From NCBI RefSeq assembly GCF_022376445.1, contig NW_025954962.1, positions 620,001 to 684,000 on the forward strand: 64,000 bases of DNA, written 5' to 3'. The DNA comes from Fomitopsis serialis (Eukaryota > Basidiomycota > Agaricomycetes > Polyporales > Fomitopsidaceae). This document shows positions 1-64,000 of this stretch, one piece after another. Made by a program: the position numbers and the translations under genes. Position 1 is the first letter of the stretch. Every line of letters starts with the position of its first letter. Below the pieces are notes generated by a model. The model was not told the DNA's origin and made no database searches. It worked only from the letters and a program-made list of their open reading frames with translations.

Positions 1-3000
1 GCCGCGTTGCGTCCTTCAGCATGTCGCGCAGAGATGCGATCTCGCGCTGCAGTGCCTCGACCTTCTCCGCGTGACCCCGAGTAAGACGATCCTCATCACT
101 CTTCAGGTCACGGTGAGAGTCAAGCAGCTCGCCCAAGCTTCCGGTAGTAACAGCACGAAGCGCGTCTGACTCCTCGCGAGATTTGGCCCACGAGTTCTCG
201 AGCTCCAAGATGCGAACGCGAGCATTCTCGACTTCGGTCGTACGCGCCTCCAACTCGCCGCGAAGGTCCGCAAGATCTGCCTCGAGCTGACCCGCCTGCT
301 CGCGTGCATGAACGTGCTGGCGGTCGACTTCGGAGGCCCGGGCAGATGCAGCCTCCATGGCCGCTCGCGCCTGCTCAAGGGCTCGGATATGCTGTTCATG
401 CGAAAACAAGAGCTCCTTGAGCTGGGTCTCGGCCCTTAGGTGGTCGGCCTCGCGTTGCTCGATGATGGAGCTCTGCGCAAGGAGACGATCTTCATGTTCC
501 CTCAGCATAGATTCAGTGTTCGCGTGCTTCTCCTGCAAGGTCCTGAATGCTTCCGAATGACGATCGTGCGACTGGGACAACAGATCAGCCCGTTTGAGCG
601 CATCGTCGGCGCGTGCCTCTGCCTGCTCCGCGATCGAAGTCTGGAGAGCAAGAGAGTTGGCGAGATCTTTGTTCTCCGTTCCCGCTCGGCCTGCTCAGCG
701 AGAGCTACTGAAAGCTGCCGTTCAAGCTCAGCGGCACGATCTCGCTCCACACGCGCGATGTCCGATCCAGAACCGCTCTCCAAAGCAGCAACCTTCGCGC
801 GGTAGAAAGCGGCTTCCTGCAGAGCACTAACCCGCATAGTCTCGGCGTCTTGAACGCGCGCAGACGCTGCGTGAGCCTGCTCGATGAGGCTTGCCTGATC
901 ACCAACGTCAGCACCCACAAAACGTCATGATCGACTGGATTCGTCCTCACCTGCAACTTGGCATGCAGCTGCTTAAAGCTGACGATCATCTCCGCGACCT
1001 TCTGGCCGTCGATGTCGTCCTCGTCCGCACTCGCAAGCACGTCACCTTCCGACTGGTCGTACATGAAGCCCGAGCGCGCCGCCTTGGACAGGGCCGCGCG
1101 CATCCACGCCTCCCGCCTTTTGATCGCTTCCATCTCTGCCTCCTTCTGCTTGAGGTCCCGGATGAGATCGGCCGTCACGTTGCCCGTCGAAGGCTTGCCA
1201 TACGGCGACCCGTTCGGAACAGGCGAGCCAGACTTGGCCGCGTAGAACGCGTCCGTAGGCGCCCTGCTCCTGTCCACGCTCGGGGATGGACTTCGCCCTG
1301 TGATGCCATTCCTGCTCATCATCGCAGTTGCCATGCTGATGGGTTCCTGACCATCGCCAGGTCCAACAGGAGATGTTCCACGACTGGCAACAGTATAAAG
1401 CGGTGGACTCTTCGCACGGCCTTGGACTTGATCTGGCGTCCGAGCACGCTCTCGCACGTCGGTACTAGACTGCTCAGGGCTGCTGTCGCCGCCGTCCATA
1501 TCGTCATTGCCCCGCCTCATCTTGCCCTGGGCAACGCTTGACAACGCCTGTTGTGTCACGCCGTTGGGGGTCCTTGATCTCGTGTTCGATGGAGACAGCG
1601 CCCTGCGGACCTCCTCAACATCGGACATCTGTTGCTCAGGGGAGATTGGTCGGCTTCCGTTGACAGTCGAACCGATAGCCGCCTGCGGGCCTGTGAGCGA
1701 TATCTTCCGAGCTGGTGCTCCACCAGTAGCAGCCGCAGCGGCGTTAGCCTTGTCCGAATTGGGATACTTGATATGCTCTGGACACAAGGCAGTCAATATT
1801 GACGCCTCAGCAAGCCATCTTGGAGACCCACTCGTATCTAGGACATGGACGAGGGTCGGGTCTTCTGGCTTAGCTGGGTTCCCGAGCGACTCGCCGCCTA
1901 AGCCTCCGAGCACGAATACGCGAGAGCCCATTGATGCCATGGCATGCCCAGAGCGAGGAGTCGGTGCAGGTCCCATCTTCTGGAACATATACCATCGTTG
2001 GTCTATGCCGATGTCAATCACTGAACACGAATGTGTATTCGGAAGGCACTCACTAGAGATCTTGAACGCGCCCAAGTCACCGAGATCTTTCCCATCGACG
2101 CCTCTACCACCGAACACATATATGACATCGTCAACTAGAGCAGCAGCGTGGCCCTCCCTTGGAGATGGGATGAAGCCTATGCACGTCAGCTCCGACCACA
2201 TATGAGTGATGGTGTCGAAGACCCATGTATCGTTGTAATGATATTGGCAATCAGTACCGCCGAAGCTAAAGAGGGTATTGGGTCAGAGCAGTGACACCTG
2301 ACCAATCAGAAGCAGACCGACAGGAAAATCTTGTTCTCGAGGGTCACGCAGACGTGTCCCGTTCGCTGTGCGGGGCGTGGAGAACCCTCTGCGGGCTCAA
2401 CAAGTTCCCACATGGCCTTGGTTCGGACTACAAAGAGTTGAGCTTCGACTGGGCTCAAGCTGGGTGTGACTTACGGGAATTGAGATCGAACGCCCAGAGG
2501 TCGTTCAAGAATTCACCATCCACTTGGCCACCGAACATGTAGAACTTGGATCCGACCATAGTGACAGCATGACCATACCGGCCAACGGGACCAGGGCCAT
2601 ACGTCGCTACCCGTGTCCATTCTCGCGACACTACACATCGCGCGCAACGTAAGTGCTGGACCGATGTGATGACGATGGCCGAATACGTACCAAGGTTCAG
2701 CAGATACAACCCATCATCCTGCTTATCCCCAGGCTTCGCCTTCCCACTTGTCTTCGTGTCACCGCCCCAAACAATGAGAACACTCCCAACAAGCGCGCTT
2801 GCGTGTCCGACGCGGGGGCTTGGCACTTCTCCCGCTGTCTGCAGGAGCGTCGCTGACAAGTCCCTGGTCGACAGCAGATACAGGTCGTTCCTGACGGTCT
2901 CTCTGACAAGGCCGCCAAACAAGAACAGTTCGCCTGTCGCGGTGGCCGTAGCAGGCAGTGCGTGGCCGTACCGAGGGAAGGGTGATGGTGATGGGTTCGT

Positions 3001-7353: not shown

Positions 7354-7733
7354 CGAAGGTACCGTACATGCATTTGTTCTTGGATAGGGACTTCACGGCA
7401 CATATACAGTCTTGCTAGCAGCTCACGATGCATACGACACGATTATGATACGTCCGTATAATGCACATAATATTTGGCGCATAGAGCCTGTGGCGGAGGC
7501 GATCAGATGAGGCGATCGGGTGATCAGGCATGGAGGGGCAAGAACGGAGGTGGCCCGGCACTGAATGGAGTCGTCATCGATGTCCCCGGTCATGCTCACC
7601 CCGTTCCGTCCGGAACCCGTCTCGCTTTCTCAGCTCTGGCGCTGCACTCTCCGCCACCATCCTCTCGCCTCCCTATCCGCGAACACCCTGCGTGCCCGAT
7701 TGACGTTCCAGTTCAAATACGGTATGAGCGCCC

Positions 7734-9059
7734 TCGAGAAGCTCTCCAGCAACAAGGCCTTGGTGGCGAGCTCACCAATACAAGTTCAAGGTGGGTGGAA
7801 GGACCGTACTGACGGCGTAGGTTCGTGTCAGCTAGACCTTATCTAACGTGTTCATTACGTGCAGAGCGCCGCTCTCGGTGGACTCGATGCCAACTTCAAC
7901 CTGTTCCTGCCCCCTAATGCGGTGAACGGCAAGGTCCCATCCTGTACTACCTCTCGGGGTTGACCTGCACGGAAGACAATGGGTAGGCTTGCTACTTCTG
8001 TCCTATGGACCCTGCCATTCATAGATATTAGTGCCCAGAAAGGGAGCTTCCTCGGTCCCGCGTCCCAGGAAGGGATCGCTATCCTCTTCCCGGACACGTC
8101 CCCCCGGGCGCAGGCATCGAGGGCGAAGACGCTGACTGGGACTTCGGTACCGGTGCGTACTACAGGCTTGTCTCAGCGAGGCCGCGGGCTGAACGCGAGC
8201 CGCAACTGCTAAGGCGCTGGCTTCTACCTGAACGCGACGAACCCGAAGTATGCGAAGCACTACAACATGCTCGCCCATGTCACCGAGGAGATCCCGCAGG
8301 TCGTAGAGGCTGCTGGCCTCCCAATCGTGAGTCGGCCAGCTGCGTCGTGGATCGGTGTCCTTACCCGGCGCTCGCCCGCAGGACTTGACCCGCCAGTCCA
8401 TCTTCGGCCACTCCATGGGCGGACACGGCGCGTTGACAATCTACCTCAGCGCCGTGCTGAGCGGGCAGAAGCAGTACCGTTCCGCGTCCGCCTTCTCGCC
8501 GATCTCGAACCCCACCAAATGCCCGTGGGGCGAGAAGGCGTTCAAGGGTACCTCCAGGGCGGCATCGAGGAGGCCAAGGAAAAATACGACGCGACGGAGC
8601 TCATCGGCAAGACGAACAAGGAGCCGCTGCACGTCCTCGTCGACTACGTAAGTTGCTCCCCTCGCTGCGTCGTACGGTTAGAGGCGGGTGCTGACGAGGA
8701 CTTGGTGCTTGGTACACAGGGTACGGGCGACAACTTCTACAAGCAAGGACAGCTGCTCCCAGAGAACTTCTCAAAGGCCGCGCGCGATGCTGGGTACGGC
8801 GAAGTGCAGGTCCGGGTACGCAGCCAAGAGGGCTACGACCACAGCTACTTCTTTGTGCGTGTTCCCCCAGGTCGCCCTCACGGCATTTCCTCGGCGGTGC
8901 TGACCTTGCCCTGCCTGCGCTTCTCGCAGATTTCGACATTTGGCGCGGACCACATCCATTGTAAGTCGAATGACGATAGCTGTGCTCTTGTTCCAGCGCG
9001 GGTGCTGACTGAATGGCTGGGCTTGGCTCGCAGTCCACGCGAACTTCCTCAAGGCGTAG
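7734..9059 (+). CDS. S-formylglutathione hydrolase
   Basis: Esterase D-type serine hydrolase that splits S-formylglutathione to glutathione and formate, the last step of glutathione-dependent formaldehyde detoxification in the cytosol. The start at 7734 gives the usual short N-terminus before SSNKA. Diagnostic blocks are [18 protein letters not shown], the nucleophile elbow [10 protein letters not shown] near 8410, YGTGDNFYK holding the acidic residue, GYDHSYFF holding the catalytic His, and the C-terminal ADHIHFHANFLKA. Several introns of about 50-70 nt interrupt it. Single-base losses in short homopolymers near 7762, 7778, 7937 and 8106 break the frame, and adding one base at each restores the family sequence. 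Length near 285 residues after repair is normal. It lies head-to-tail behind the lipase and convergent with the kinase gene. Confidence 0.88.
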
Positions 9060-12017: not shown

Positions 12018-14460
12018 TCAATCATAACCTCTACCACTCCTTTGCTTCACTCGCTTTGGTCTCTTGTGGTGTTTCTTACCGTTCAGGGCTGATTCCCCAT
12101 CGGCATTTACAAGGACCGCTGCGATCCTTGCTCTTCGGCCCGAAAGGGCACTACCATCATCGGCGACGGCATTCTGATGTGGATATACCTGCATGCGAGA
12201 CACCTCCTGGCCATGTCTCGCCGAGCCCTGCACATGGGGCCTCATAGACAGCGACGAATTGCTCGCGAAGAAGGCCCGGTCGACAGTCTGAGACTTGAAG
12301 CTCGGGCCCACGTCCACCGCGGAAGGCGTGTCTGGATTCGACGTCAGTCCATTCTGAGGCACGAACGTGTCGGCGCCCTTTGCCACCCGAGTCGTCGGCG
12401 CTCGTTTCTTTCCCATTGCACGGCCGAGGGCGATCTGGCGTGTCTCCTCGTTGAACTCGTCCTCGGATACGCCAGGCGGTGGGTGACAGTATAGCAACTT
12501 CGCATTTACGTAGTCCTTCATGATGTATCTGGCGGCTCGTGCCTCGTCCGGGTTACCCTGACCAGAACGCATGAAGCCTCTGCCGACTATGTCGGACATG
12601 ATCAAGATGGAGTATAGGATTATATGTGGACAACTCACTTGCATGGGCTACGAGGAAGTCTTCTGGGGTGATCTGGCCAGACCCGCCTTCTTCGACTGTT
12701 TTGACTTGGACGTTCAGACCGTACGTCGCGTCCAGGACCTCTTTGGGTATTCTCTTAACGACGAGTCCCACAGGGCCAGTATGTTCCCTCATCTGATCAA
12801 TGGGGAGAACACCATCGCAGACGAGATCGGCTTTTGTCGTCGTGAATTGAGGGAATACCAGACCCGGACAATCGCACAGCATGAGACTGGGCGATAGATT
12901 GATCGTTTGGAAATGTTTCGTCTTTCCCGGTGTCGATGACACACTGACTTTTTTCTCGCCGAGTAAGGCGTTAATCGTGCTGGACTTGCCCACGTTGGGG
13001 TAACCCACGAGACCAACGACCAATCTCGAAGGGCGATTGCCGGATGAGTCCGTGAAGGCTGACATTCATTCAGCCAGGGGCAGACATGGCAAGAGAGGGA
13101 TGCTACTCACTGCTCAAATCAGGAGCTGTCTGCACAAATAAGTCCTCGAGTTCCAGGACCGACAGAACCTTGACTCTTGGGTCTCGTGCGTCTTCGCTTT
13201 CCTCCTCTGGAGGGAGACGGTAGAGACTACTCGCGTCTGAGCTGGCATCCGAGATCGAATCGTCGTCGGATGGCGCTCCGTCTACAGACTCGGAACTCTC
13301 GCTGCCGTCGACATCTGTATTCCCCGGGGCCACCTCGGGGATCGCGCTGGGGAGATATCTGCCGGTTTCGTGCACTTCGTCGTCCTCGTCTCCGGAATCC
13401 TCGATTGGTGCCTCGAGTTCTGTGGCAGCCAATGCCTGACGGCGGGCCTCCTGTAGCGCTGCAGCATTCGCGGCTGAGAAGAATGCATAATTGATACCCT
13501 GCGTGTCAAAATAGTCGGCCCATTGCCGCCTGAAATGAATGCAAGTCAATACTGGTTTCAAGACGAACGAGCCGCTCCGACTGCACCTTTGCTTTAACGT
13601 TAAGAGGTCAGCCTTGTTGATGAGAAGCAGACTCCGACGTTTGCCCCTTCCTGTACCAGCTTCACCCTCCGCCCCCTCAACATCTTGTACGTACGACTCC
13701 AGATCTTCGCATCGGAAGCGGAGGGGGTTCCGAGCATCGACGATCTGGACCACGAGATGGGAGCGCTCTAGGACCCGCCAAAGCTGCCGCCATACTTCAA
13801 CATTTCGTTCGAACGGGGTGAGCAAAAATCGGTCTCTATCTTGAAGCCTGGAGCATATGACGGGTGACATGATGAGTACTAGAACCGTATCAAGGCCGAG
13901 AGGAACCTACTCCGCCAATCCCCTTCTCCACTCTAGGAACGCATCTTTCTCTTGTCTGTCGAGCTGCGCTGGGGCCATGTCCTTTGTCCATGGGGGGCGC
14001 CTTGGTACGCGCAGCCGTTGCCGATTTTCGCGATGCTTCTGCAATGTGTTTGTCTCTTCTTCGTCGGAAAGAAGATATGCATTGTGCTGCGACGTAGCAG
14101 GGGAATTGATGATTGTTACGTTCCGACGTTCTGCCAGAGGCTATTGAAGAACAGAGCTTACAACTGGACAGGGAAACTTACCAGCTGTAAATTGAGTGCC
14201 GGCCAATTGAGCGGTGTTTAGAAACTCATCCAAGTCCCGTTCTTGTGTGATCGACTGTAGCCTGGTAGTGGAGTCGATGTCGGTAGTATACTGCCGTGTT
14301 GCACATCATCGTAATGCAATTCGACTGGGAAGGTATTAGGCGGCGTACCAGTCCCGTCTGACTAGTCCTGTGTGCATCTTTCGCCTGCCGATTGATGATA
14401 GCGCGCCCAAGCCCGCTCGGGTTGGGATTCTTCCCCTTAGTTGGGGGCTACAGAGGGCAT
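12018..14460 (-). CDS. LSG1: LSG1, large-subunit GTPase 1 (60S ribosome maturation)
   Basis: Circularly permuted cytoplasmic GTPase that releases the export adaptor Nmd3 from pre-60S subunits. The N-terminus carries GLGRAIINRQAK and ITQERDLDEFLNTAQLAGT, characteristic of Lsg1. The permuted motif order is visible: G4 INKADL (about 13615), G5-like FFSAANA (about 13470), G1 GYPNVGKSS (about 12990), and G3 DCPGLVFP (about 12860). An acidic Ser/Asp-rich insert lies between G5 and G1, as is common in Lsg1. The C-terminus is Lys/Arg-rich (KKHHKRPKR) before the stop at 12018. The start at 14460 gives MPSVAPP and needs one extra base in the G run at 14443-14447 to connect with KGKNPNPSGLGR. Five or more introns are present. 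It is transcribed toward the FHA kinase, 109 bp away. Confidence 0.9.
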
Positions 14461-19185: not shown

Positions 19186-22100
19186 ATGTCTCGACTGCCT
19201 CCCAATTCTTCTAACGACTACGCACGCTCGAGATCAGGCTCTGTTCGCCAGAATGTTCCGCCTACATCCCCGCCTGTCAGGCCGCTGCAGATCAACCGGA
19301 CGCCTACTGGCACGCGTCCTACCTCACCAAGTTCTATAATGTCAAGCTCATCTGCCGCTGCTAGGGGACCTATACGTCCGACACGGTCTGGCCTGAGAGA
19401 TCGACAAGTTTCTGACGTCTCAAATTCTGATCGCGCTTCAGTGGACTCGCGCAATGCTCCGAACTCGAGGACATCAGAGGACCGTCTGGAAGCCAGACGC
19501 GGGGAGCCATCTAGAATACGTAATGGTGCAGCGACGACGTCCTACAGGTCTAACGGGAGCTCGCAATTTGTTTCCTCGCCCATATCCCCCATGTCTCCAG
19601 ATTCAGCGTTGACACCTTCGTCTATGGCGGCCGTGGTCGCCTTCCAGGCGTTAGGCAGGAAGAGAGGGATGTCAAATGACAGTATGATGGACGCGGAGTA
19701 TGAAAGAGAAAAGGCACAAGAACGCGAGGCGGAGCGGGCACGGCAGCAGCGATTGAAGGACCGGGTGCCAGGAAGGAAACCTACGGGAAAGACCAAGGCT
19801 GGGGATATCGATGGTGAGTACTGTAACTAGGGCCAGTGCATTCCTTGAGCACTGTGTCAGGGTGAATGGTGCTTTGACCTGGTCATTTAGCTGTTCTTGA
19901 CGAGATCAGGGGAGAATGGGAGGTGTGCATGAATCCAGACGTGAGTCTCGCGATCGCAATGCTGCAGTCATCGGCCTGAGTGATAGTAGTTCAATCCGGT
20001 AGAACTTGCACTACAACTGCTGGATGAATCTTCGTTGGGAAGAGACGCCGACTCGTTCCGACGGACGAAAGATTTGCTTTCGAATGCTTTGAAAGGGTCC
20101 GTGGACAGTGCGTTGCTTCTCAATAGCGAAACCCGTCCGTAGCTGACATGCATCAGAGTACTACCAGGCGTTTGCTGGTGCACTACCTCATCATGCCGCA
20201 CTCGTAAGTCATCTCGGCACTACGCAAAACCATATTCGAGAAGCGCGCACCGCATTGCAAGAAGCAAAGGATACCCTAGGAAGCAAGCGTGCCGATCTTG
20301 TTCAGCTATGGTCGAGAAGCCAAACCGTTGACGAGATGATGCGCATATTGGACCAAATGTACGGTGTCGTATGCAAGCGAGTTCTGCCACTTTACCATCA
20401 AGAACTGACAATCGACGCAGTGAACGTCTGAGAGCTGTCCCGGACGCACTGGAGAGCTTGATATCTGAGAAACGACTGCTCGAGGCTGCCGTGCTACTAG
20501 TGCGGAGTCTGAAGCTGATCAACAAGCAAGACATGTTGGATGTTGGGGCAGTTTCCGATCTACGCAGCTATCTAGTCGCACAGGAGGCGGTCGGTCTCTT
20601 TTTGCTACTCCGGTCATGACTATGGGTGCTTATTGTCGCTCGCACGCAGGCTCTCCGAGAGATTTTGGTCGATGAACTCAACAGTCACCTGTACCTCAAG
20701 TCATTCTGGTGCGAGTCACGCTGGGCAATATACACTCCTGGTCAACAGAGCTGTGAGTGATGTGTGAAGTCTCGCGCCGTTTTGTGTCACGAGCAATCTG
20801 TAGTCCCCAAGCTCGATGCCTCGGACCAAGGTGGTTCTGATATGAAAGACCCGTCGGCTGCTTCGCCCATCTCCCGATCCACACCAATCAGCAAATTCTT
20901 GATGGATCTCACTGTACGCCCGAACGATCCACCGTACTTGATCGACGAGCAGAACTACCGCGACAGCACGTCTGGAGCCGTATTAGCAGCGTCTACGAGC
21001 TCTGGAGCGTTAGGTATGTCGGCTGCGGGGTCGTCGACATCCCTTTCCGGTATGCTCTCTGGTAACATGCAGGCACCGCCGCCGCAAAATCCCGAGGCAG
21101 ATTCGTTTTCTTACATTGAGACATTATTGGAAGCGCTAGCAGTTCTCGGGAGGTTAGGGAGCGCTCTCGACGTAGTCGCACAGAAACTACCGCAGGAGAT
21201 TTATTCGCTGGTGGAGTCAACCTTGGATGAGGTAGAAGAGAGAGCAGAATTCGGTCGACGAAACTCTGTGATAACTTCCGGCCCAGGTGCGGGAAGACTA
21301 GACAGTAGCCTTCTACTCACAGGCCCTGGGGCGATATCGAGCATGGCTATGGGCACTGGCATCCCGGGCGTATCGGTAGCTCCAGGCGCATACAATCCGG
21401 TTCTGGGTCCTCTTGCCGGTAGAGGGCCACCGCTAAAGGCCGCAGCCCTGCGACTGGCTGCCCTGGAGGCGTCCACCAAGGTTACTGATCAGGAAACCTT
21501 GCGCGACTTCTTCTGGACACTATACTCGAAGATGGATGCCGTCACACAAGGTCTACGAGTAGTATACGAAGTGTCGAACCGAATAGGCTCGGTGGGTGAT
21601 TTGATCGTTTTTCCATTGGACAGAAGCGTTGACCACATTCGTAGAGACGACACTTCAGTGATTCTTCAGGGGCGAAGCCCGGTTCTCTCTTCCCACTGGC
21701 CGAGGTGTGGATGCCAATACAGGCAGAGGTATGCTCCGCGTCAGTCCAGCAGAGTTCGCACCTAACGCTTATTACTATGTTAGATCAGAACCCTTATCGG
21801 TGACTATGTAACCGACGAAGAGCAAGGAACAGTGTCTGGGAGGAATCCGATCTCTTCAATCAACGAGGTCCTACGAGAAGGCAAGTTCAACAGAGACAAG
21901 AGCAAGGTTAGCCACGAATGCTACGCATCTCACATACGGCTACTCATTACTTGAGCAGCCTGTCTTCCGTTTCGCAGACACCGATGCGAAATACAGCATG
22001 AAAGCGCTCAAGCTGCACGAAGACGAGCTCACTCGAGTACTCAGGGATACGGTGCCGGGGCTGGTGCAAGGGTCTGCAGATAGCGCAGTACAAGCAACAT

Positions 22101-23922: not shown

Positions 23923-23963
23923 CAGCGCTGTGATATAAGAAGGACCGCATCAACAACTAACGT

Positions 23964-26640: not shown

Positions 26641-27540
26641 TCAGTCATTTGTGTACCTGCCTACTCGCGTGTCTACGTCTTCGTCTGCGCTCTCACCAAG
26701 CCACTCAGAGATATATTAATATTACTGTATAGTCTAATATTTTGCTGGGTTCAGTGCACCTGCGCGGTGCTGATTGATGTCATCGACACATAAGTAGCAG
26801 AGATTCTGTAAAGAGGACATGTACAGCGACATCGCGGATTGCATAGCAGAACATGTCATAACAGATTGTAATGACCGAGACGCGCCTCGGACGCGTCAGA
26901 GCGCGTTGTGCCGACGTGTTTGTACAAACTCGTGACGTGCCGAGCGGCTGATGGCGACCTCCAGACAATAGGGGGGTATCAAAAGCAGACGTTAGACAAG
27001 GATATCCGGAGCCAGCGAAGGTTGAAGGAATTGTCTACTCTGCCCACGGGAGACTAGCATGTGAGTGTCCTTCGATCGCGTCGTGACGCGTAAGCGCCCT
27101 GCCCCCTCCTCTCCCCGCTCGTGCACCGCGTCCGCTGTCTGTGCTAAATAGACTCTGCTCCCGGATTGTCTAGCCTCGGGCGCACCAATGCGATGCACTG
27201 CCTCGAGTCTTCTCATGCCTACCCACGTGTATACTCGCCCCATTCTCGAAGATACGGCTTCCAGCTCACGTTTGCACGCATAAGGGGCTCTTGTCTGTGA
27301 ACGTTTCATACCGGCATCGATGGGGCACAACAAATGGAAAAACATCGCACTCGAAATAGTACATTGGCAGTACGCTGAGTCAACTGAATACCACTCCGCA
27401 TCCCTCGTTCTCACTCATCTCGACCCTGTGCGAACGCGTCCTCGCTCGCGCGTGGTCTTTCAAAAGCCCCGCAGTTTTTCCGTGACCTGCATTCTTCTCT
27501 CGCTCATTTTTATCGCTAAGCGGGTTCAGTAGCGGTCGGG

Positions 27541-27547
27541 TATAAAA
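27541..27547 (+). promoter_or_regulatory. TATA box of GH5 copy 2
   Basis: TATAAAA, 71 bp upstream of the ATG at 27612, nearly the same spacing as in GH5 copy 1. Confidence 0.65.
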
Positions 27548-41029: not shown

Positions 41030-41374
41030 TAATAGTATTCACGCTAATATCGCTTTATCTTACGACCGCATGTAGTTAGCATAACATTCATCTTGTGCAC
41101 TCATACATCTTGCTAGTATTGCTACGATATAGTATTCTGGTTTGGACGCAGTCGTCCGGAGTGGCGGGTGCCGCGAGTCGCGTGGGAGCTCGGCCACGCA
41201 GGGCCACGCATGAAGTGAACGTGTGGCCGGGAGCGGACCCACAAAAACAACTCTAAACTGCACCATAACGAGCCCTCGCCACTCCCTCGCCCGGCAGATT
41301 GGACCAGTCGGACAATCGCCATCGACACAGCTGGCGATTCTTTGATGGTGAAGGCGCAAGTCAAAGGCTATAGC

Positions 41375-42621: not shown

Positions 42622-45440
42622 GCTCGACAAATTTTTCTAAGATGTGATCGCTCGTCAAGGTGTAGTTGTACCATCACATACTAGCATGGCCGACCCCGAG
42701 TCAGTGTCATCGCTCTCCCGAGTGTGGTGGCGCTGACGCGGTCTCGTGGAATAAATATGGGCGTTCTTTGCATCCATATTCTGTGACCCATGCTAGTTTG
42801 CAATGGTTCAAATTTGAGCCAGTCTCATGAGCAGCAAGATATGGTACAACCTACTGCAACCCGCTTACCTGACTAGTCCGCATAAGTGAGATTCGTTCGA
42901 ATGCGGGCAAGGGAGAGCGGCCAGGCGTGACAGATGATGAGTGCGTTCGAGTGCATCTCACTTATGCATCTTACTCAGGCGAGCGGATTGCGGTGGATTG
43001 GCCCAACTTGTGAGCTGCATGAGTGGCCAATTCACTGCTCGCCCCCTTGTCGTTCCTTACCGCACTCGAAATGCAGACCCCAAGCGCCTGGTGCGCTCTC
43101 AGTTATCGCGTGCAGTCTTGCCATCGCCATGCGCTATGCTATCATTCCGTCCTCAATCCTTGTATTCTGCGACAGATAGGGTGTATCTCTTGTTGTATGA
43201 CTTCCAAAATCGCTCTCAATGTTCCACCTTTGTAGCTTTCAATTGTACCGTGCTTCTTGCGCTTTATAGTACTAGAACTTTTCGTGCCTGCCTCGTGGCT
43301 TCCTCGCTGTGTGATGATATGCGGACTGCGATGTTGATCGGTCGTGTGGTTAAAGAGCGGTAAGAACCACGGTCTGTGATTGACCAGGAGAACAGGACCT
43401 TGGACCGCTTGCTCACCGGTGAAGGCGGCTGCATAGGAGATGGTTGGAGCCGCATGGTCGGAAGAGGTGACGAGCCCGTAGGCCCAGTCTTGATCTTCTA
43501 TGCGTTGTGCGCTTTGGGCTCAAATGTTTGACTAGGACCGGGCTCGTGCTTAGGGTTTATCGGTTGCCCTATCCGCGTCTGAGCTGTGGCCTTGTCTTCG
43601 GAGCGTACATGCGGTCGTGGGCGAGTGGACTCAAGGCATGCTTTCAATACCCAATCGACACGAGCGAGTCGCAGGACACACGGAGATGAGGGTGTGTCGA
43701 GGCCTGGGACACGTCTCTGGAACGGCTCGAACGTGATTTAACTTAGGTGAGGATACTTCTTTACTACATTGGGTCTTGCTGATATAGACTCGTTGAATGG
43801 GCGACCCTATGTCAGAGTCTGTCTGTACTGCGCTCGACGACATCTCTATTGTGGAGACACTCACTGTCGAACCCATGCTTGGAGCGACACGCTTCAGGTA
43901 TTGCGGTCGACAAAAACATGTCCTAATCGTACTTTACCGGTCCCATACGGAGGGCAGTGTAACGAAGTTACGAACTACATGTGTCCTGGATCATGAATTG
44001 GCACAGCGCGCACCAGTACCACAGCTTGGTCATCGGCGCCGCGCAGTCCTCGCGCTGACTACTTGTGCTGATAAAGAAAAGTCATACCTTGTTTGACCTC
44101 GAAACCGCCGGTCAATTGGCGTCGACAGAAGTATGTTAGCCTGGGCATCATAAGGCGTCCACCTGGCCAGCTCGAGGCAATCTGACTCAATCTGTTCTCT
44201 GCGGTGTTTGCCAATCAGACCTACTCCGAGGAAGCCACGGAAGCATGGCGAACCGCTGCGAACAGGTTTCAAAACATTCGACGAAGCGGGGATGGAAAGG
44301 AAGAAGACATAGTGGGCGCACATGGGCAGGCTGGCGGAGAGGTCGTGTTCAACCTTGTCGACTGCAGTGGTCAGACGTGATGGAATGGGGGTTATTGAAT
44401 CACACTAGTCTCACCTCGACTCATCGTGCATCGCCCTACAGTTGATGAACGTAGGAGCGTCTTTATTGCGAAGACATTCGGCGTTAACTTGGACCGTGGA
44501 CTGGCCTCGACCAAAACGCAAAGTGCATGCGGTCTATATTGATTTTCATCTTGCACCTCGCTAGCATGGGATACCTACATAGCACAATGCACTGGGAAGT
44601 GTTTCTCAGCATGCATTTCATGACAGGACCTGGGGAAGGGGACGACAAAGTCGGACGGTGTCTGGACGTGAGAGAGGAGATTGTACGCCTCTGCACAATC
44701 GCCCAGCTACGGGAGTTGAAAATTGACCACGCGTCAATCTGAGCCCTGCTGCCAGAAATGTTGAGACGGGCTGTACACACCAAACTCTGAGCTATTAGCA
44801 AGGCTCAATCGTCCTGGGTCACATGCCGTTGGCACTGCAACAACGTCGCACGCACCGGGCAAGCGAGGAGTGTGGATAGCTGCGTGAGTTCGCGGGGACA
44901 GGAGAGCGGGATGACAGATGAGACGGGAGTCTGACAAATGCACCGGCATACCGATAGGGAAGTGGTTTGGCCGAAGCCCTTTGGCCGGATTATGAGGTCC
45001 TCGACCTGTGTCAACCGCGGATCTCGGTGCAATGACTAATGGGCGTCGTTGCGACAATTAGAGTCGCGGTGGCGAGGATGCGGGTCCTCCCGCTTCCACC
45101 CTACTCCTCCAACTAGCGGGGCCCTACCCTCCACGCCTGCGCACCCTGCCACAGCAGACCACCGCATCGCCCGTCGAGCACACAGCAGGAGTCACAGAGC
45201 CAAAAGAGAAGGAGACCTGTCGGAGCCGCAGGAGACACAAAAAGGGAGAGGTGAGACTTTTCTCCCCGTTGTCCGGGCTGCTGAGTCACGTGTGGCCAAA
45301 GCTCAGGCGCTCGCTCGTCGAGCTCAACTTGTCCTCTGTACTTGACTTGAACGGGTCCGTCCTCGTCGTCGCAGACGGGCTTCTCTCTTAACCGCTTCCT
45401 TGACGACCTCTGCCGCCACCTGCGACTCAGCGGGAACACA
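42622..45440. other. 2.8-kb gene-free gap
   Basis: Open frames of up to 140 codons occur here but none shows a recognisable motif, coding bias or consistent splice sites. A hairpin-type inverted repeat lies at 42880-42967. The right 400 bp must carry the promoter of the SNF2-RING gene. This is the largest stretch of unexplained sequence in the window. Confidence 0.5.
42880..42967. repeat. imperfect inverted repeat (hairpin)
   Basis: Arms GCATAAGTGAGA (42880-42891) and TCTCACTTATGC (42956-42967) are perfect reverse complements. Pairing extends inward imperfectly through TCGAA to about 25 bp per arm, with 21 of 25 positions matching by eye. The spacer is short. It could be a miniature element end pair or a structured transcript. 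Confidence 0.6.
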
Positions 45441-48400
45441 ATGCCGTCTCCGGGCTCTACCAGCACAGCCTCACATGAGACATCTCACTCGGCTCTGCCG
45501 TCCATGCAGTCCTACTCTCGGTCGAATCCCATTGACCTGACGCTCGACGACGACGACCGTGACCCATACCAGCCTCAGGACAGGCTTCTCAAACGACCGT
45601 GTACAAGCACGCGCAGCTTCAATGCCTCTTGTGAATCTATCTTGGAGGAGCGCGCGCGCTCTCAATCGCAGTCCTCTGGCCTTACACCTGTAATGTCCGC
45701 GTCTGCAATCCTTCCTCCCGTAGGGCAGCCAAACATATCCTCGCACCTATCTCAGTGGCAGCACCATTCGCCTTTCCAAGGGCCACAGCCTCCTATACCA
45801 TCTTCTATTCGTCCGCCACCATTCACCGGCCCGTCCACTTCCTCTGCGTTTTTCCCTGACCGCACCAAGTCTGAATCCATGCAGCGGCCTCCTATGCTTG
45901 CCCCATCTCCTTCGCGCCACGGACTTGAGCGGTCAAATAGCTCATTCCGACAGGTGATTGATTTGACGAGTTCTCCTTCCCCTCCGCCATCTCGTCCCCT
46001 ACAACCCCAGCAGGGCAACCTGCCGCCCGATTTACCTCCCAAGACACCCGTATGTATCGGACAGCTGACTGTCACAGCGCTCGTCCTGTACCCGATACCA
46101 TATCTCTCCACCCAAGAGCATGCGGACACCGAGTGGGCGCCGGTACGGTTGACTTACGAACATACGCCGCACAAGGCGGCAGGGTCGGAGACAATACATA
46201 TCAAGACGCCTAATGGCAAGTCCCCCGCGGGCGAGGTTCTGCAGGGCGAGAGCTTCGCCTTCGTAGAGCAGAAGGCCGCCACTTTCTTGGGCCCCATGTT
46301 GGGGAAGGGTCTCATCCGATTAGATGCTAAAGTGCGGCGTGGCATGCCGAATGTAAGTCCTCCAGTATCGCATCATTGTCTTGTCTAATGGGGCCTGCAA
46401 GCTCCCCATATTGCCTTTGCAACTGTTAGTTTACACGCCCAAGGGCAACATACCCGTCGTCGCGAACTACCTACAGCAATCCGGGTTCCTACTGGATCAC
46501 CCGACGCTGCCCGGAGACATCCACCGCGTAATGAACTCCTATTACTACAACCCACATAATCCTCCGGCCGGAGGACACAGTCGAAACAACCACCATAATG
46601 GCCGCATGGGCTACTCCGGGCCAGGAGGCAGCAATATGGGTCGATGGGCCGCTCCCGGAGTACCCGGCAAGAGCGTGGAAATTCAGCGGAGCCAGGTGGA
46701 CGAGTTGTTCAAGAGCTTACAAGACGGTGAGGAGCTGCAGGAGACCGATCCTCGTGAGTGAACGCGCCCTATATTTTTTCATGGGATCCTTGGCTGACTT
46801 GGTCCATAGCACCTGAGATAGCGACGACGCTTTATCCTCACCAGAAGAAGGCGCTGACGTTCCTCTTGGAAAGAGAACGGGAGCGCCCCGGCTCAGGGCC
46901 GTCGGGCAACTATTCGTCGCTGTGGCAGGAGCGGAGGAATCCGATTACTGGTCAACGCTCGTGGCTGCATCTCATTACGCAGCGGGAGATTCATCAGGAA
47001 CCTCAGGAAGCTAAGAGCTCGATACTTGCAGATGACGTGCGTATCAAACGCTGTCTGTATGCTCCTGTGCTGATTGTTTCGTCGGTGAAACGTAGATGGG
47101 TTTGGGAAAGACCATTACATGCGTCTCCCTCATCGCTGTAACGTTATCTTCGGCACGTCAACATGCCGCTACGCCCGTTGTGCGGCCGAGTGCACCCCCC
47201 GAGCCTCCGGGGCCTCCACTATCTGCCGATCATTTTGCCGGAAGTGTGTGGGGTATGCCGACGCAGCACGGACAAGGCAGCTGTTCAACTTCCAAGGGCA
47301 AAGCGAAGTCTTCCCGGGACCAGGATCGCGAGCAGGCCGGGTACACGAGGGCGTGTCGCATCAAAGTCCGAACGCGGGCCACGTTGATCGTCTGTCCGCT
47401 CTCGACAGTCGTCAACTGGGAGGACCAGTTTCGAGAGCATTGGCGGGCGAAGTCCAGGTCGTGGGCGGTGGCGGCGGCAGTGCAAGTGGTGCTCCCAGTG
47501 GGACTTCTACGCCCTGCGGCAGTGCCTTCATCAACGGCCCTGGAATGTACACCTTTCCTTCCAGCTCATCGTCGATTCCGGTGAAATCGGAAGCGCAAGT
47601 GCCCCCTGGGCGCGTCCGCGAAGGAACGCCACTCCGCGTCTATGTCTACCACGGCAATGCACGACGCCCCGATCCCACTTTCCTTGCGGACTTCGACGCC
47701 GTAATTACCACGTACTCGACTCTAGCTTCGGAGTTTTCGAAGCAGTCAAAGAGTATTGCTTCCGCGGGGGATGATGATGACGAGGATGACAATAGCTCGG
47801 ATGGCGAGCGTCTTGAGGTCGACGAAAGGGGAAATCAATTCATCAAGCTCTCGAAGCCGAAGAAGGCTGGCAAAAAGAGAAAGAAATGCGGCGTCAACGG
47901 CGTGGAGGCGACGAGTCCCTTGCAGAGCGTGGACTGGTTTAGAGTCGTCCTCGACGAGGCGCAGTGAGTGTTCTTCGTTTATCTCCTCAACGGCATCGGC
48001 GTTTATTGACCCGCGAACGGCTAGCTCGATCAAGGAGACGAGTACCGTCGCCTGCCGCGCTTCTTGCGATCTCGTCGCCGATCGTCGACTGTGCTTGACG
48101 GCACACCAGTTCAGAATAAGCTGGATGACGTGTTTGCGCTTGTCAAGTTCCTCCGCTTAGACCCGCTCGATGACAAGGGCATCTGGACGGAGTTCATCGG
48201 CACGCCTGTCAAGTACGGACAGCCCCTCGGTGTTGCTCGTCTACAAACGATCATGAAGTGTATTACCCTCCGTCGAACCAAAGAGTCGACGGCGGAGGAC
48301 GGTCGCAAGATCCTCTCGCTACCTCCCAGGAAGGATGAACTGCGGTATCTCAAGTTCGACCCTGAGGAGCAAGCGATATACGACCAGTTCTTCACCGAGT

Positions 48401-49874
48401 CCAAGGCTGAGTTCAACGAGCTCTCGAACAAAAACGAAGTGATGAAGAACTACGTCGGCATCTTGCAGAAGATCCTTCGTCTCCGCCAGATCTGTGACCA
48501 TTTCGAGCTCGTACAGAACAAGGGTCTTGGCCTCCTCGGTGATGCGCAAGGTCAGGCGGTGTCGTACGACGACATCATAGCCACGGTTGCTCGAGAGGGT
48601 TTGAACCTACAGCGAGCCACCACGATATTCGCTCTTCTCAAGGAAGCGGGCGTCACGCAGTGCGTGGAATGCGGGGGCGAACTTGCCAGCTCGCAATATA
48701 GCCTTGACGGTGGTCTTGGCGAGGCGGAAGGTGTTGCGGGCTCAGGAAAGCGCGGAAGGAAGCCCAAGGCATCGTCCTCCCGAGCCTCGACGCGTCAGAA
48801 TAGCCCGTCTGCGCCGCATCCTATCCTCACCCGCTGCCAGCATCTGTTCTGCCTCGGCTGCTTCCGCAATTCTGTCGCTCCTGGGTGGCCTAATGTACCG
48901 CAAGACGCTGGGCGTTGTTGTTCTGTGTGTCAGACCGGGCTCAACTTCTTCGACGTCGTCGAGGTCAATCCCGAAGGCGCGCTACCGGACGCACTTACGA
49001 AGAAGAAGGCAGTCAAGAAGGAGAAGAGGCAGAAGGGTATTCTGATGGAGAACTTCCATCCATCCACAAAGGTGAAGGCGCTGCTGTCCGACTTGATGGA
49101 GATTTCGCGAGCAAATCCGTACTCGGCGAATTATGACCATCGTCGATTGAAGTACAAATGATCGACGGCGACGGCAACGCCATCGAGAACGGTGTGGTCA
49201 AGACGGTGGTGTTGTGAGTACCTCCTTTTTCATTATCGATCCCTCGACTGATGGTCGACGTAGCTCGCAATGGACAACAATGCTCGATAAGTGAGTCTGG
49301 TCGTTGCATCTATTGAGCGGAGAGTTTTGACATTATGTCAGGGTTGAGGACGCATTGGAAGTCACGGGCATCCGTTACAGTCGGTTGGATGGAACGATGA
49401 AGCGTGATGAACGAACGCGAGCCATGGATTCCTTGAAGCACGACCCTAGCTGTGAAGTTTTGCTTGTCAGTCTGAAGGCTGGCGGAGTGGGTCTCAACCT
49501 CACTGCCGCTCAGCGTGTATACTTGATGGATCCGTATTGGTATGCTCGTTCTTCTATGTCGGACGCTCTCGCTGAACTTGACAATCAGGAATCCTGCTGT
49601 GGAGAATCAAGCCGTGGATCGTATTGTATGCTCCATCTCATTTGCTCGTCGTGCGTTCAGTTCTAACGACCTTTGCCCGTAGCATCGCCTTGGTCAGACG
49701 CGTCCTGTCCTTACGGTCAAATACATCATCGAGAACTCAATTGAGGATCGACTGCTGGAGGTGCAGAGGAAGAAGACCGAACTTGCAAACATGACTTTAG
49801 GAGGTTCGAGCTTCAGCAAGGCGGAGATGCTCCAACGTCGTATGGAAGAATTGAACCAGCTGTTCGGGAGTTAA
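45441..49874 (+). CDS. SNF2 ATPase with embedded RING, RAD5/Uls1-like
   Basis: DNA translocase and probable ubiquitin ligase of the RAD5/RAD16/Uls1 group. The ATG at 45441 opens a Ser/Pro-rich region with two SUMO-interaction-like motifs, IDLTLDDDD (45531-45557) and VIDLTSSPS (about 45956-45982). A folded segment (TVTALVLYPIPYL to GFLLDHP, about 46060-46500) could be a divergent HIRAN domain. The SNF2 core follows: SILADD/MGLGKT across an intron near 47037-47098, VVLDEAH, CLTGTPVQNKLDDVF, FRxRRTK-type CITLRRTKES, VVFSQWTTMLDK, KAGGVGLNLTAAQ, and DRIHRLGQTRPV. A RING lies between the lobes (CVECGGEL near 48661, then RCQHLFCLGCF and CSVC near 48830-48940). Frame breaks lie near 47446, 48100 and 49137, each repaired by one base. 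The stop is at 49872-49874. Confidence 0.83.
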
Positions 49875-57001: not shown

Positions 57002-59324
57002 ATGGCCCACCACAAGAAGCCGTTCTCTGCGAAGAGGCGCAAGGAGCAGCTCCAGCTCAAGCGCGCAGTCAAGCGCGGCGAGGCCGAGCCCCCGCCCAAG
57101 CTCGACCGCCACGGCCGCCTCAGAAAACCCCACACGGCTGGGCAGCGCGTCCGAATCTCAGCCTGCCGCGGACGCGTCCCGCCGCCTCCAATCATCCTTC
57201 GTTAAACTATCCGCCGACTTCCTGAACGATACCCGCACACTTGCGTCCGACCTCGCGCTCACTAGGCCGATCCCGCCCCAGGCCGCGATCTGGCCAGAGC
57301 GATCCGTAGGATTGCCGGCGAAGCGAATTTGACCTTGACCTGTCCGAAGCGGCCAAGTGGCGGTATGACATGTCGAAGAAGGAGGTCGAGGCGAACGAGG
57401 AAGGCCTCTTCAGAAAGTGGCTTGCGCAGACCGATGATGCTGTCAATCACCGGGCTACTGCAATCAGCCAGCCGGATCCCGACCACCCCGCCCCCGCAGC
57501 CAAGATGCCCAGCGCACCCACGTCCTTCGAGCGCAACCTCGAGGTCTGGCGGCAGCTGTACGTCCACCATCCTTCTCTCTCTGCAGCCTACATACTTAGC
57601 TCGCATCCAGTTGGCGCGTGACCGAGATCTCCCAGATCCTCCTCATCCTCCTCGATGCTCGCTGTCCCCTCCTGCACTACCCGCCTGCTCTATCTTCTTA
57701 CCTCGCTGGCCTCCCCTATGCTTCGCGCAGGCGCGTTGTGCTGGTTCTCACAAAGGTCGACATCGTAGGCCCCGCACGCGCCGATGCGTGGGCCGCGTAT
57801 CTGCGCGAACAGTACCCAGGCACGCGCGTCGTCCAAGTCGAGTCGTACACCGTCTCGGACGGCGAACCTGCCCCCGCGCAGGGAAAGAGGGCACCGGAAT
57901 CGCGCCTCTCTTCCGTCTTCCGCCATACGCTCGTCGAGACGCTCAAGGACGCGCACGCGGAACTCCTCACGCCGCCCGAGGACGTGAGGAGCGACGCGGA
58001 GAAGCTCGCGCGGTGGAGGCCCCGCGTGCGGCGCGAGGTTGACTGGAAGGCTGTCCTCGAGGCAGAGGGCGAGCGCGTAGGGAGTGTTGTCGGCGGGACG
58101 GCGGCGCCTCGCTCGGCCACTCATCCACAGGAAGAGCACAACAGATTGAAACAGGGAAAGCCCACCGTTCGATGACGAGGGCAGCGAGGAGAATCAAGGC
58201 GGAGATGCCGTGGCACCGGAGTTCCTAACAATTGGCCTCATAGGTTCGTCTTCCCATCTATCATGCCTGACCCACGAGCCACAGCCAGTCACAGGCCAGC
58301 CAAACGTAGGGAAGTCATCCCTGTTAAACGCGCTCTTCGGCCAACACAAGGTGAAGGCGTCTCGGACGCCGGGCAAGGTGCGTCCCGACGACCGCGGCCG
58401 GATAGGCCCATTCCGTCTCAGCTCACCCGGTATCTCTATGCCCACAGACGAAGTATTTCCAGACGCTCTTCTGGACGCCCGAGGTGCGCCTCGTCGATTG
58501 TCCTGGGCTGGTCATGCCTAGCTTCGTCCCCATGGAGACTCAGGTGGGCAGCACTACTCGTCGCCTCCTTCCCTCCATCTACCGCGTCTCCTTCGCTACA
58601 CAAAGTGACCGGGCGCCCCGGCCATCTAACATGCTCTCACCAGGTCCTCTCCGCAATCCTGCCCATCTCGCGCGTCTCCGCCGCGGCCCTCTGCACGTAC
58701 CACGCCGCGCAGCTCCTCCCGCTCGAGCGTGTCTTCCAGCTCACGCAGCCCACGCTCGCCTCCCCGCTGCCCGAGGACCGCCGGACGTGGCGCGCCGGGA
58801 TGCGCCCGCGCACGGAGGCTGACGGCGAGGCGCAGGAGCGGGCGTGGACGGCGATGGACGTGCTGACGGCGTACGCGCTCCGCAAGAGCTGGATGACCGC
58901 GAAGGCGGGGCGGCCGGACGTCAGCCGCGCGGGGAACGCCAGTGAGTGTTTGCTGTTGTCGACTGAGATACATCGCGCTCAGGAATGCCGTGTCGTGTCG
59001 TTAGTCCTGCGCGCCCTCGCAGAGGCTCGGATCCGCTGGGCGTTCTGGCCGCCGGGGACGGACCCGCACGTCGTGGAGGAGCACATGGGGCGTCGAGGGT
59101 GCCGGAATATGGATCCCTACTTCCGCTGATCCTGATCACGATGTGGACATGGAGAGCGATGATGACGCCGCGGCACAGTCGGATCGCGAGGAGTCTGCCG
59201 CGGAGGATGCAACGGAAGACGAAGAGGAGCTAGGAGACCCGACGCCAGCTGTCAGCGGTGCTTCCAGTCGGTTTGCAGCTTGACGATGGAGGACGACTCG
59301 GAGTCAGAAGCGTCGGATGACTGA
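57002..59324 (+). CDS. GNL1-type circularly permuted GTPase
   Basis: Homologue of human GNL1, a nucleolar/nuclear HSR1-MMR1 GTPase. The ATG at 57002 opens MAHHKKPFSAKRRKEQLQLK, a basic leader typical of the family. Then come SFVKLSADFLNDTRTLASDL, PKRPKWRYDMSKKEVE, and FERNLEVWRQLWRV. Permuted motifs follow: G4 LTKVDI (about 57752), G1 GQPNVGKSS (58293-58319 after an intron), the TPGK switch then TKYFQT, and G3 VDCPGLVMP (58490-58516). The tail is strongly acidic (DMESDDDAAAQSDREE). Breaks lie near 57130, 57353, 59125 and 59275; each needs a base or two. Without repair the frame would stop at PYFR (59127-59129). The stop at 59322-59324 assumes repair. Confidence 0.83.
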
Positions 59325-60049: not shown

Positions 60050-61231
60050 TCAGTACCGCACCTGGCCGGCCGCAGCACTGTTGTAGTCGTAGCCGCCCTG
60101 GTACACCGGCACTCCATACGGGTCGTAGTTCGCGCGCCCCATGCTCGGGCCACGCTGGAGCTCACCCATCTGCGGGCCCGGGCTCGGGCCACGCTGAAGA
60201 TTGGCGTAGCCACCGACGGGGCAAGCGCGTTCGGGCCGGCGGTGAAGTCGTGGTCCGGGATCGGGTTAAGCGGCGTGGTGTTGTTTCCGTGACCGTGGCC
60301 GCTGTCGGAGCCATGGTACCGTCGCCGTGGCCGGAGCCAGATTGGAAGGACCGTGCGACGCGACTGAAAGGCGGCGGTGTCTCGGGAGCCCATCGTCGTT
60401 GTCGACAGTCGGCTGCCAGTCGATGGGGGCCATGCGGTCGTCGAACTCCTTGGACGGGCGGAGCTTCCACTTGCGGAAGAGCGTCCAGGCGACGGCGATG
60501 AGACCGATGGAGCCAGCGACCGAGATGATTACGACGAGGGTAGTCTTCGTGACCTTGGACGTGCTGGACGCAGACGTAGCGTTGGCAGCCGCAGAAGCGG
60601 TCGGCGTCTGGAAGACGGTGCTGGTGACGTGGTGGGAGGAACCAGTGGCAGAGGCGTCCTGGGTATCATCGGTGGCAGTTTGAGACGCAGCATCAGTGGC
60701 CGCATCTGAGGTCTGAGCTGCAGATGTAGCACTGGTCTTCGAAGCAGTGTCAGTGGTGCTCGAAGCAGAGCTGGTGCTCGAGGCGCTGGAAGAGCTCGAC
60801 GAGGCGCTCAACGACGATGCGCTTGAAGACGACGAGCTCGACGATGCCTATCAGAGCGGCATTGTGTAAGTGTCGGGATTAATGCGGCTGACAACTACAT
60901 ACCGAAGAGCTAGCGCTCGAGGAGGCAGAGCTCGAAGCACTCGCCGAGGTGGAGGTTGCGGATGACGCAGAAGTGGCCGCCGAAGCTGCACTGCTTGCGG
61001 CGTGGAGGACGCGCTTGCAGTTGCGATAGAGCTGGTCTTCGTCGGGGGGTCGTCACCGAGGCCGAAAACACCAGCCAGGTCCGGGGAGCGCTGCTTGATC
61101 ATGCGTCGTACGTCGACATGGTCGCGACGTTGAGAGAAGTCATTGGCCTCTGAGATAGTGGCCAAGGCGAGGATAGCGAAGCAAAGGAGCGTGAGGGTTG
61201 TAGTCTTCTTGGATTTTGTAATGAACATCAT
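60050..61231 (-). CDS. Ser/Thr-rich single-pass surface protein (Mid2/Wsc-like architecture)
   Basis: The ATG at 61231 opens a signal peptide (TLTLLCFAILALATISEA). A short region with DVRRMIKQRS follows, then a Ser/Ala/Thr-rich stretch, probably heavily O-mannosylated (about 61030-60580). One transmembrane helix, TTLVVIISVAGSIGLIAVAW, lies near 60545-60485, followed by RKWKLRPS on the cytoplasmic side. The cytoplasmic tail carries FDDRMAPIDWQPT and ends with NYDPYGVPVYQGGYDYN and GQVRY before the stop at 60050-60052. An intron lies near 60845-60905. The frame shifts near 60985 and near 60215; at the latter one extra C restores VGGYANLQRGPSP. The architecture matches fungal wall-stress sensors and SKG6/Axl2-type proteins, but no cysteine-rich WSC head is present. 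Function as a sensor is inference. Confidence 0.65.
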
Positions 61232-61828: not shown

Positions 61829-64000
61829 TCAATTGCTCGCCCCCTTCTCGCCGTGGCTCGACAAGGTCCAGTCCGACACCGACACCGACGGCGGCGACGT
61901 CGTGTAGTCGCTCGACGACATGTCCGGCCACTGCGGGCTGAACAATATCTGCAAGCTGTACTGGCCTGCCGGGAGGTCGATCATGATGACTGTCACGCCA
62001 GTGTTCGGCAGGTCCGCCTGGCCCGAAGGCAGAGGAGGATCCGTGCTAAGAGGCCCAGCGGGAGTCTGAGTGCTCAGCGTGTAACCAGTCGACGGACTGA
62101 CAATCGTCATTTCGAGCTTCTCGTTGCCGATCTGCAGCGTGAAGCCATTCGAGTTCTTGGTCACAGTCGCATTTGTGTGCATACGCCATTGAATGCCCGC
62201 CGACGCCGTGATGTCGTCCTGCAGCAGCACCTGCTTCCTGCTGTTGAGCATGCGGATACCACGCTGGTACGTCGTCCTGAGAATCTAATGTCAGCAAGAA
62301 ACATGCGATGGACACGCCACATCACTTACACGTTGGCATAAGCACTCGTGAGATCAGCCGTGAAAAACGCCGTCGAGCCATCTGGGACGTCGAAGACAGT
62401 AGTTCCGCCCGTCTGCGTGACACCATCTGTGCCATTGGTGATCGTCGGCTGCGCAGTGACAAGTTGGTTGGCAGCGCCTACGACGATGGCGTTTTGACCC
62501 TCTGTGCGCTTGCGGTAGTACAGCCAGCGCTGACTGTCTTGCAAGTCGTTGCTGAAGTACCCGGTGACGAGGTAGTTCTCATCTCCGAGCTCACCAGCCC
62601 ACCGCGTGCCGAGCGCGTCGAGCACGAAATCACCACAGTCGAGGTCGTTGTGTGTCTGGTGGCCCTGGAGGGTACCCGCCTTCATCCCGATGTAGAGAGC
62701 GTCCTCGTCCGTCCAGCTGGAGCGCATCGACGCCCACTGATCGGTGTGGTTGGTGAAGAACGCATCCAGGGGCAGACCATCCCAGAATGCACCTGAGACA
62801 GCGGGGTTGTACCAGAACATACTCCAGGGCTCGGCAGCGTCGTGTTGGTCGCGCTGGAACAGTTGATACTCCGGGTGGTTGTAGACATCACCGTAGAAGA
62901 GCATGGCGTTAGCGGTCGTGGAGTACAGGTTGACACCATTGTCACCCCACTCGAACATCGACGCAGGGCCGGTGACATGCATGTGGAATTGACCGGTGAG
63001 TTCGAAGCCAGGGTTCGTGGTGAGCATGCCGAAATCGGAGCCAGTAGCGGTCATCAAAGCTGAGACCATCTCTGCGTTACCGGTCACACCGAAGTACCAG
63101 TAGTTGGGGGTCTCTTGCCAGGTCCCATCAGAGGAGACAGCCTGAGCGCAGTTGAGAAGTGCGTTGGGGACGGTATAGCCCAGAATTGCTTCTGCGGTAC
63201 CAGTGGGATCATCGCCCAGGATTGCGAGCGCACCCAACGTCAAGCCGCCATTGCACACACAATTCCAGTTGCCCTGCGTGTAGTTCGTCCACCACCCGTA
63301 GTACTGCGGGTCGCCCGTGGCGTAAGCGGACATGCCGGCGTCGAGACCGTAATTGAGCAGGGTCCACATGATTTGGGACTTCTGCTCATCGGTCCAGGCA
63401 TCGTACATCCAGTCGTACGCAATCGCGAACGCGTTGGTCAACTCTGCAGTGTCGAGGAAGTGAATTGGGTTCCACCGAGTAGCGTCGTCAGGTCCAAACG
63501 AGCTGCCCGTCAAATTGCCGGCGGCGTTCTACGACGCAATGAGCGCTCAGACAACCTCTATATCGACATATAACATACCTGCAACTCCTTGTATGCCCTG
63601 TCAACCCATTTGGTGTTGTTCGTCATGCGGTAGGCATACGAGAACGCCTTGATCTCATCTTGATCTGACGAGCGGGATCGAGGATACCGTTGCCACTGTC
63701 CAGGATGTACGGGACGACAGGCGGTTGTAGTAGTCGGTAGCATTGCCGAAGATCGAGTCGTTCCAGTGCTTCAAGTACGGCTCGTTCGGGATGAGCGTCT
63801 GAAGGGCGTCCCACTTGTACTGGGGTGCGATAAGGCGGGGCGATCAGGGCGTACTTGAGTCGGAGACGGGTTGGAAGGCACCCAAGTCTCGGTGGGCCAG
63901 CTGACACCGGACGCCTGCGCCTGGAACGTGGGCGAGGAGAAGGCTGCAGAATTGGTCTGCTGCTTATCAGGAGAAGCTCCGAAGCAGAGGCAAGTCTTGA
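61829..64000 (-). CDS. Heparinase II/III-like polysaccharide lyase, 5' end beyond window
   Basis: Polysaccharide-lyase-type protein with an (alpha/alpha) toroid and a beta-sheet C-terminal region. Visible blocks: WVPSNPSPTQVRPDRPALI (about 63885-63830), FSYAYRMTNNTKWVDRAYKE near 63640, NPIHFLDTAELTNAFAIAYD near 63465-63405, WNCVCNGGLTLGALAILGDD, GTWQETPNYWYFG with candidate catalytic residues, and GHQTHNDLDCGDFVLDALG (about 62670-62610), a hallmark HNDxDCGxF of the C-terminal domain. The end is SSHGEKGASN at 61829. Introns lie near 62288-62330 and 63526-63580. One base is missing near 63656 and the frame shifts again around 63720-63830. Substrate unknown; uronic-acid polysaccharide is the family expectation. 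The N-terminus is not in the window. Confidence 0.75.

Follow-up and report, generated by a model that had tools for sequence, protein, structure and literature searches.

Long-read genome assemblies carry a described class of consensus error, insertions and deletions among which losses of single bases dominate, which are enriched in homopolymers and which leave false introns and wrong-frame ends in gene models. Assemblies of heterozygous or dikaryotic fungi in turn contain uncollapsed haplotigs, short contigs that repeat part of a larger contig almost exactly. A conserved protein that requires a shift of frame is also known from living cells, from the genome-wide frameshifting of Euplotes; these shifts take place at stop codons, according to PMC10235951. 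Features of all three are found in a 64,000-base stretch of the genome of the fungus Fomitopsis serialis (hereafter the window), in which conserved genes repeatedly lose their reading frame. Here we analyse these frame breaks in three genes, encoding an S-formylglutathione hydrolase, a mit1-type chromatin remodeller and a GNL1-type GTPase. We compare them with proteins of relatives and with a second assembled copy of part of the window. In our view, at a probability of roughly 95%, the breaks are assembly errors, that is, patchy consensus errors in base count, mostly single bases lost, in an assembly of a heterozygous strain with partly separate haplotypes.

We take Fomitopsis serialis, Neoantrodia serialis and Antrodia serialis to be one species. 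The window comprises bases 620001-684000 of a contig of 1,827,906 bases (C112), within an assembly of 66,186,262 bases in 806 contigs. In PMC11678574, Neoantrodia serialis Sig1Antser10 is given as GCA_022376445.1, with 66.7 Mb, 893 scaffolds and 56% GC, which we take to be the present assembly with some further small contigs; in PMC8955403, Sig1Antser10 appears as Antrodia serialis.

Results

Using spliced alignment that permits introns and frame changes, we aligned proteins of fungal relatives to the unaltered window DNA. Three genes were tested in full with close relatives: the hydrolase gene (7724..9056, plus strand, 7 introns by spliced alignment, best homologs 85% identical), the remodeller gene (34174..41026, plus strand, 20 introns by alignment to P0243) and the GTPase gene (57002..59315, plus strand). 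Out of 120 proteins listed for each gene, the best 20, 6 and 10 were aligned, respectively, leaving aside P0122 and P0132. Calls made by a single homolog were excluded (36103, 38133 and 40847 in the remodeller, 57098 and 58414 in the GTPase). All three genes turned out to be broken, with 5 breaks in the hydrolase, 7 in the remodeller and 6 in the GTPase; these 18 are spread over coding sequence of about 8.6 kb (1 per 480 bases). The relatives carry full-length proteins for these genes, and introns as well as the conserved protein between the breaks are preserved in the window.

A first-pass annotation of the window, made from its letters and open reading frames, had listed 14 sites at which single bases appeared to be lost, and had suggested that at least 13 of 19 genes were broken. 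All six of those that fall within the three tested genes were confirmed: 7762 and 7778 by 20/20 homologs, 7937 by 20/20, 36184 by 4/6, 38925 by 6/6 and 57353 by 10/10. The list was incomplete, as 12 of the 18 breaks are absent from it (8105, ~8546, 35586, ~35865, 35924, ~36061, ~36209, ~57130, ~57312, ~58150, ~59088 and ~59278).

Within the hydrolase, one-base losses were located near 7761, 7777, 7937, 8105 and 8546, and each cluster was called by all 20 fungal homologs; at the first two sites, 18 homologs indicated two single losses and 2 indicated one loss of two bases. The remodeller breaks are placed by the homologs at 35586 (6/6), ~35865 (6/6), 35924 (6/6), ~36061 (5/6), ~36180 (4/6), ~36209 (6/6) and 38923 (6/6). 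For these two genes the claim of the first-pass annotation that nearly all changes are losses stood, with 98 of 98 calls in the hydrolase and 36 of 39 in the seven clusters of the remodeller, where the other 3 are gains of two bases. It did not clearly stand for the GTPase, where the calls favour a gain at two of the six sites and are evenly divided at another. There, the break at 57356 was called as one lost base by 10/10 homologs, and that at ~59278 likewise by 4/10, the other six alignments stopping at or before 59280. The break at ~57130 was called by 9/10 homologs (two bases lost in 7, one extra in 2), that at ~57312 by 10/10 (one lost in 5, two extra in 5), that at ~58150 by 10/10 (one extra in 8, two lost in 2) and that at ~59088 by 9/10 (one extra in 6, two lost in 3); at the last two sites, one extra base and two lost bases have the same effect on the frame. 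For four of the six breaks in the GTPase, then, the calls do not point clearly to the loss of one base, and some of the breaks may be gains.

When the assembly was searched with pieces of the window, a second contig (C528, 21,958 bases) turned up that matches the plus strand of the window in two stretches: 23934..25334 corresponds to C528:1-1385 (98.6% identical) and 27057..47660 to C528:1378-21958 (99.06% identical). Between the two copies we counted 132 substitutions, some of which are alignment noise beside gaps, 56 one-base gaps, the window being shorter at 14 and C528 at 42, and 11 longer gaps. At 23934..25334, 11 single bases of the window are missing from C528 and none in the reverse direction. 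Five of the seven remodeller breaks of the window are not in C528, and C528 is broken elsewhere, at places where the window is intact.

The remodeller allowed us to compare both kinds of difference within one gene. In its exons 1822 codons were aligned, and among these we counted 31 synonymous and 5 non-synonymous substitutions, 30 of the 36 lying at third positions; 6 more fall in unaligned parts of exons (unclassified) and 48 in introns. That is, despite its breaks, the remodeller is a gene under purifying selection. The same exons show 13 gaps between the copies, each of one or two bases and none a multiple of three, and 13/13 coincide with breaks called by homologs in the shorter copy (four adjacent gaps in C528, five bases together, register as a single net call). 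Since so strongly selected a gene is very unlikely to hold 13 true frame-breaking allele differences, these gaps are best read as errors. Within the remodeller intron at 37919-37967, a 7-base and a 4-base gap between the copies lie near the donor, where an extra-base call is made in C528.

The prediction that automated annotation would be damaged was borne out by one deposited model. The best match in a protein search with the GTPase was P0122, the deposited F. serialis model of this gene, which aligns to the window without any frame change at 574 of 590 aligned residues. Its intron 57306-57357 spans two breaks and is a false one, since the relative P0123 aligns there without an intron. P0122 also starts in a frame that differs from that of the conserved start, which the window encodes as well, and it ends, likewise in a wrong frame, at 59126, about 190 bases short of the end of the P0123 alignment. 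Among the matches listed for the hydrolase (the best 120 of 7999) and the remodeller (the best 120 of 165), some of them with cut or absent names, none bears the name F. serialis, as would be expected if the models were missing or fragmented, though this is no proof of it.

We then considered where the one-base gaps lie. The first-pass annotation had placed the losses usually in short homopolymers. Of the 56 one-base gaps between the window and C528, 23 fall in runs of at least 3 bases, which make up about 12% of the bases (an enrichment of about 3.3-fold), and 15 fall in runs of two; together, runs of at least 2 hold 38 of the 56, against 40% expected. The enrichment in runs of at least 3 thus bears the claim out in part, but 18 of the 56 gaps lie outside any run, so that homopolymer undercalling would be part of the cause and not all of it. 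Runs of up to 7 bases occur at roughly the frequency given by a second-order Markov model, with no clear shortage. No homopolymer of at least 8 bases was found in 106 kb (window, C528 and flanks, partly one locus counted twice), and the same model expects fewer than one in the window. Taken by itself, this spectrum says little.

Gap density does not track substitution density, which shows the errors to be patchy: one-base gaps number 16 in block 41057-43057, 0 in block 39057-41057 and 1 in block 33057-35057, against 3, 22 and 36 substitutions, respectively. Of the 5725 coding bases of the remodeller, a stretch of 568 holds six of its seven breaks (simulation, p ~0.0004). Two further pairs of contigs were found by searches with two loci from small contigs, each of which had a partner (2/2). 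For the pair C563/C446, BLAST aligns 5707 columns, excluding some 334 bases at the start, and finds 29 substitutions and a single one-base gap in them; MAFFT gave 215 substitutions over 6044 columns, and the BLAST figures are used here. For the pair C230/C796, 4424 columns contain 59 substitutions and 4 one-base gaps. Since both pairs show few gaps, the gap density found here is not that of the whole genome.

For the other genes with listed sites, the evidence is graded. A Rad5-like gene with SNF2 and Helicase_C domains (45441..49874, plus strand; Pfam and RAD5 matches, a weak RING match, ends set by eye), which presumably includes a HIRAN part, has breaks near 47446, 48100 and 49137. At 47446, as at 38925 in the remodeller, the frame is lost in the window and kept in C528. 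The break at 48100 is supported by joining the two frames with an X, which gives a single unbroken RAD5 alignment of 109.4 bits compared with 89.9 for the downstream frame alone. That at 49137 is supported by matches to the same RAD5 chain on both sides in different frames, with a gap in the alignment at the join, the exons having been put together by eye.

A SEC8-like exocyst gene (19186..23924, plus strand, ends by eye) matches Pfam Sec8_C on 20761-21765. The frame after the listed site 22966 gives a weak match to exocyst EXOC4 in PDB (E 0.0035), and a Pfam search with the SEC8 pieces flanking this site gave no match on either side, so that a break there is weakly supported. At 6540, Pfam finds a hydrolase domain upstream and none downstream. 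The LSG1 gene (12080..14460, minus strand), whose ends and exon joins were set by eye, aligns with yeast Lsg1 at E 2.8e-136 through query residues 7-273 and 346-546 of 553. Doubt is limited to 14443-14447, and because only this start region is in question, it is premature to call LSG1 broken.

Further sites were assessed with a codon-usage hidden Markov model (HMM) with intron and indel states, run on the window. On codon bias, it places a lost base at 680-681, near the listed 678, in a kelch/coiled-coil gene that it draws at 5..2201 (minus strand; kelch domain on 705-2282), and another at 60191-60192, near the listed 60215, in a gene at 60050..61231 (minus strand) drawn by the model alone. 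The HMM reported 8 losses and 5 gains in total and split true genes. Of the 18 breaks that homologs confirm, it recovered about 3, and it called two of these (57122 and 58155) as gains. Because of this low recovery and the splitting, it lends 678 and 60215 weak support.

C528, C563 and C230 are second copies of parts of C112, C446 and C796. Since small contigs duplicate parts of larger ones in this way, the assembly size of 66 Mb includes uncollapsed haplotypes. A search of the assembly for a second copy of 47661-64000 found none, only a short repeat or transposon end at 53538-53578, of which 31 other contigs carry 33-45 bases with 87-100% identity. The matches to C528 are separated by a 1,722-base element (25335-27056) that is present in the window and not in C528. 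It is flanked by an 8-base duplication, both its ends start with TAGTCT, and no longer terminal repeat is listed for it; elsewhere in the genome, there are three full-length copies at 99-100% identity and many diverged ones. The element looks like a recently mobile DNA transposon, perhaps non-autonomous, that segregates between the haplotypes, and we presume that it belongs to a hAT-like family. Besides these features, the window holds two paralogous genes at 15827-17378 and 27612-29128, about 67% identical over ~860 bases, which we take to resemble GH5-type cellulases.

Discussion

The reading of the frame breaks as assembly error, already proposed by the first-pass annotation, is strongly supported by the differing gaps of the two copies, the synonymous character of the substitutions, the intact genes of relatives and the damaged deposited model. 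The source strain would be heterozygous and probably dikaryotic, with two haplotypes partly assembled apart. Patches of the consensus would have received wrong base counts, mostly through the loss of single bases, both in and outside short homopolymers, so that reading frames would be destroyed in genes which the living fungus has intact. Gene models made automatically would then contain an invented short intron, start in the wrong frame or stop early. The cause is probably consensus error in long reads where quality or coverage is locally low.

Several observations weigh against this reading. Two breaks occur in both copies, 35924 (6/6 homologs in each) and probably ~36180 (4/6 in the window, 2/6 in C528), and they could be real or a systematic error. 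Shared reads or systematic error are more likely than biology here, and there is only a very slight chance that 35924 and ~36180 are real sites, hidden among ordinary errors, at which the message is recoded or edited by the fungus. In C528, moreover, 6/6 homologs call one extra base at 12219 and 4/6 call two extra bases at 9103, each close to an intron in which the copies differ. The GTPase sites ~58150 and ~59088 lean to a gain, the spectrum of run lengths shows no clear depletion, and the two other contig pairs contain few one-base gaps.

Real pseudogenisation would mean that this strain, or this region, is losing the genes by decay. Many breaks in neighbouring genes, and the two that both remodeller copies share, would fit such decay. 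However, decay hardly agrees with the 31 synonymous against 5 non-synonymous substitutions of the remodeller, with the preserved introns and conserved protein between breaks or with two copies that are broken mostly at different places. In addition, a search of the assembly for a further genomic copy of the hydrolase piece 8200-8800 found none that could replace it. We consider pseudogenisation highly improbable. Even less can be said for programmed or tolerated ribosomal frameshifting, by which the broken frames would be translated as in Euplotes. It could account for breaks that recur in several genes and for a conserved protein that resumes after each of them, but five of the seven remodeller breaks are missing from C528, and no shift is needed there at 38925 or 47446. 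A slippery heptamer lies within 15 bases of 0/18 breaks; as ~0.3 would be expected by chance, this says no more than that the sites carry none. Frameshifting of this kind is scarcely credible here.

A narrower mechanism within the realm of error, put forward by the first-pass annotation, is uniform undercalling of homopolymers in an unpolished long-read or flow-based assembly, with a rate that does not vary from place to place. In its favour, losses prevail in two of the three genes, gaps are enriched in runs of at least 3, and runs of at least 8 are absent from the window, C528 and flanks, though with fewer than one expected in the window. It is at odds with the third of gaps that lie in no run, with the clustering of breaks in the remodeller, with the few gaps of the other contig pairs and with the near-expected frequency of runs up to 7. 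As a full account we judge uniform undercalling unlikely, and we retain patchy consensus error, to which homopolymers contribute.

The observation is well made and concerns an ordinary artefact; it is to be taken as a warning about this assembly, not as biology. In studies of gene content that draw on this genome, conserved genes may show exons that are missing, split or invented. In PMC11678574, N. serialis is the largest of 12 genomes and has the most scaffolds, biosynthetic clusters, polyketide synthase (PKS) genes and non-ribosomal peptide synthetase (NRPS) genes; such counts could owe something to uncollapsed copies and to broken genes. The approach can be reused without reads: contig pairs within one assembly separate real variation, which consists mostly of synonymous substitutions, from errors, which appear as frame-breaking gaps.

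Set beside the known systems, the window differs from described long-read consensus errors in that two separately assembled copies judge each gap within one assembly, and in that its errors are patchy, a third of the one-base gaps lying outside any run. Compared with haplotigs elsewhere, nothing is unusual here; one of the two copies has a mobile element of 1.7 kb that the other lacks. Unlike Euplotes, the fungus has a second copy without most of the tested breaks, and its breaks have no slippery-site context.

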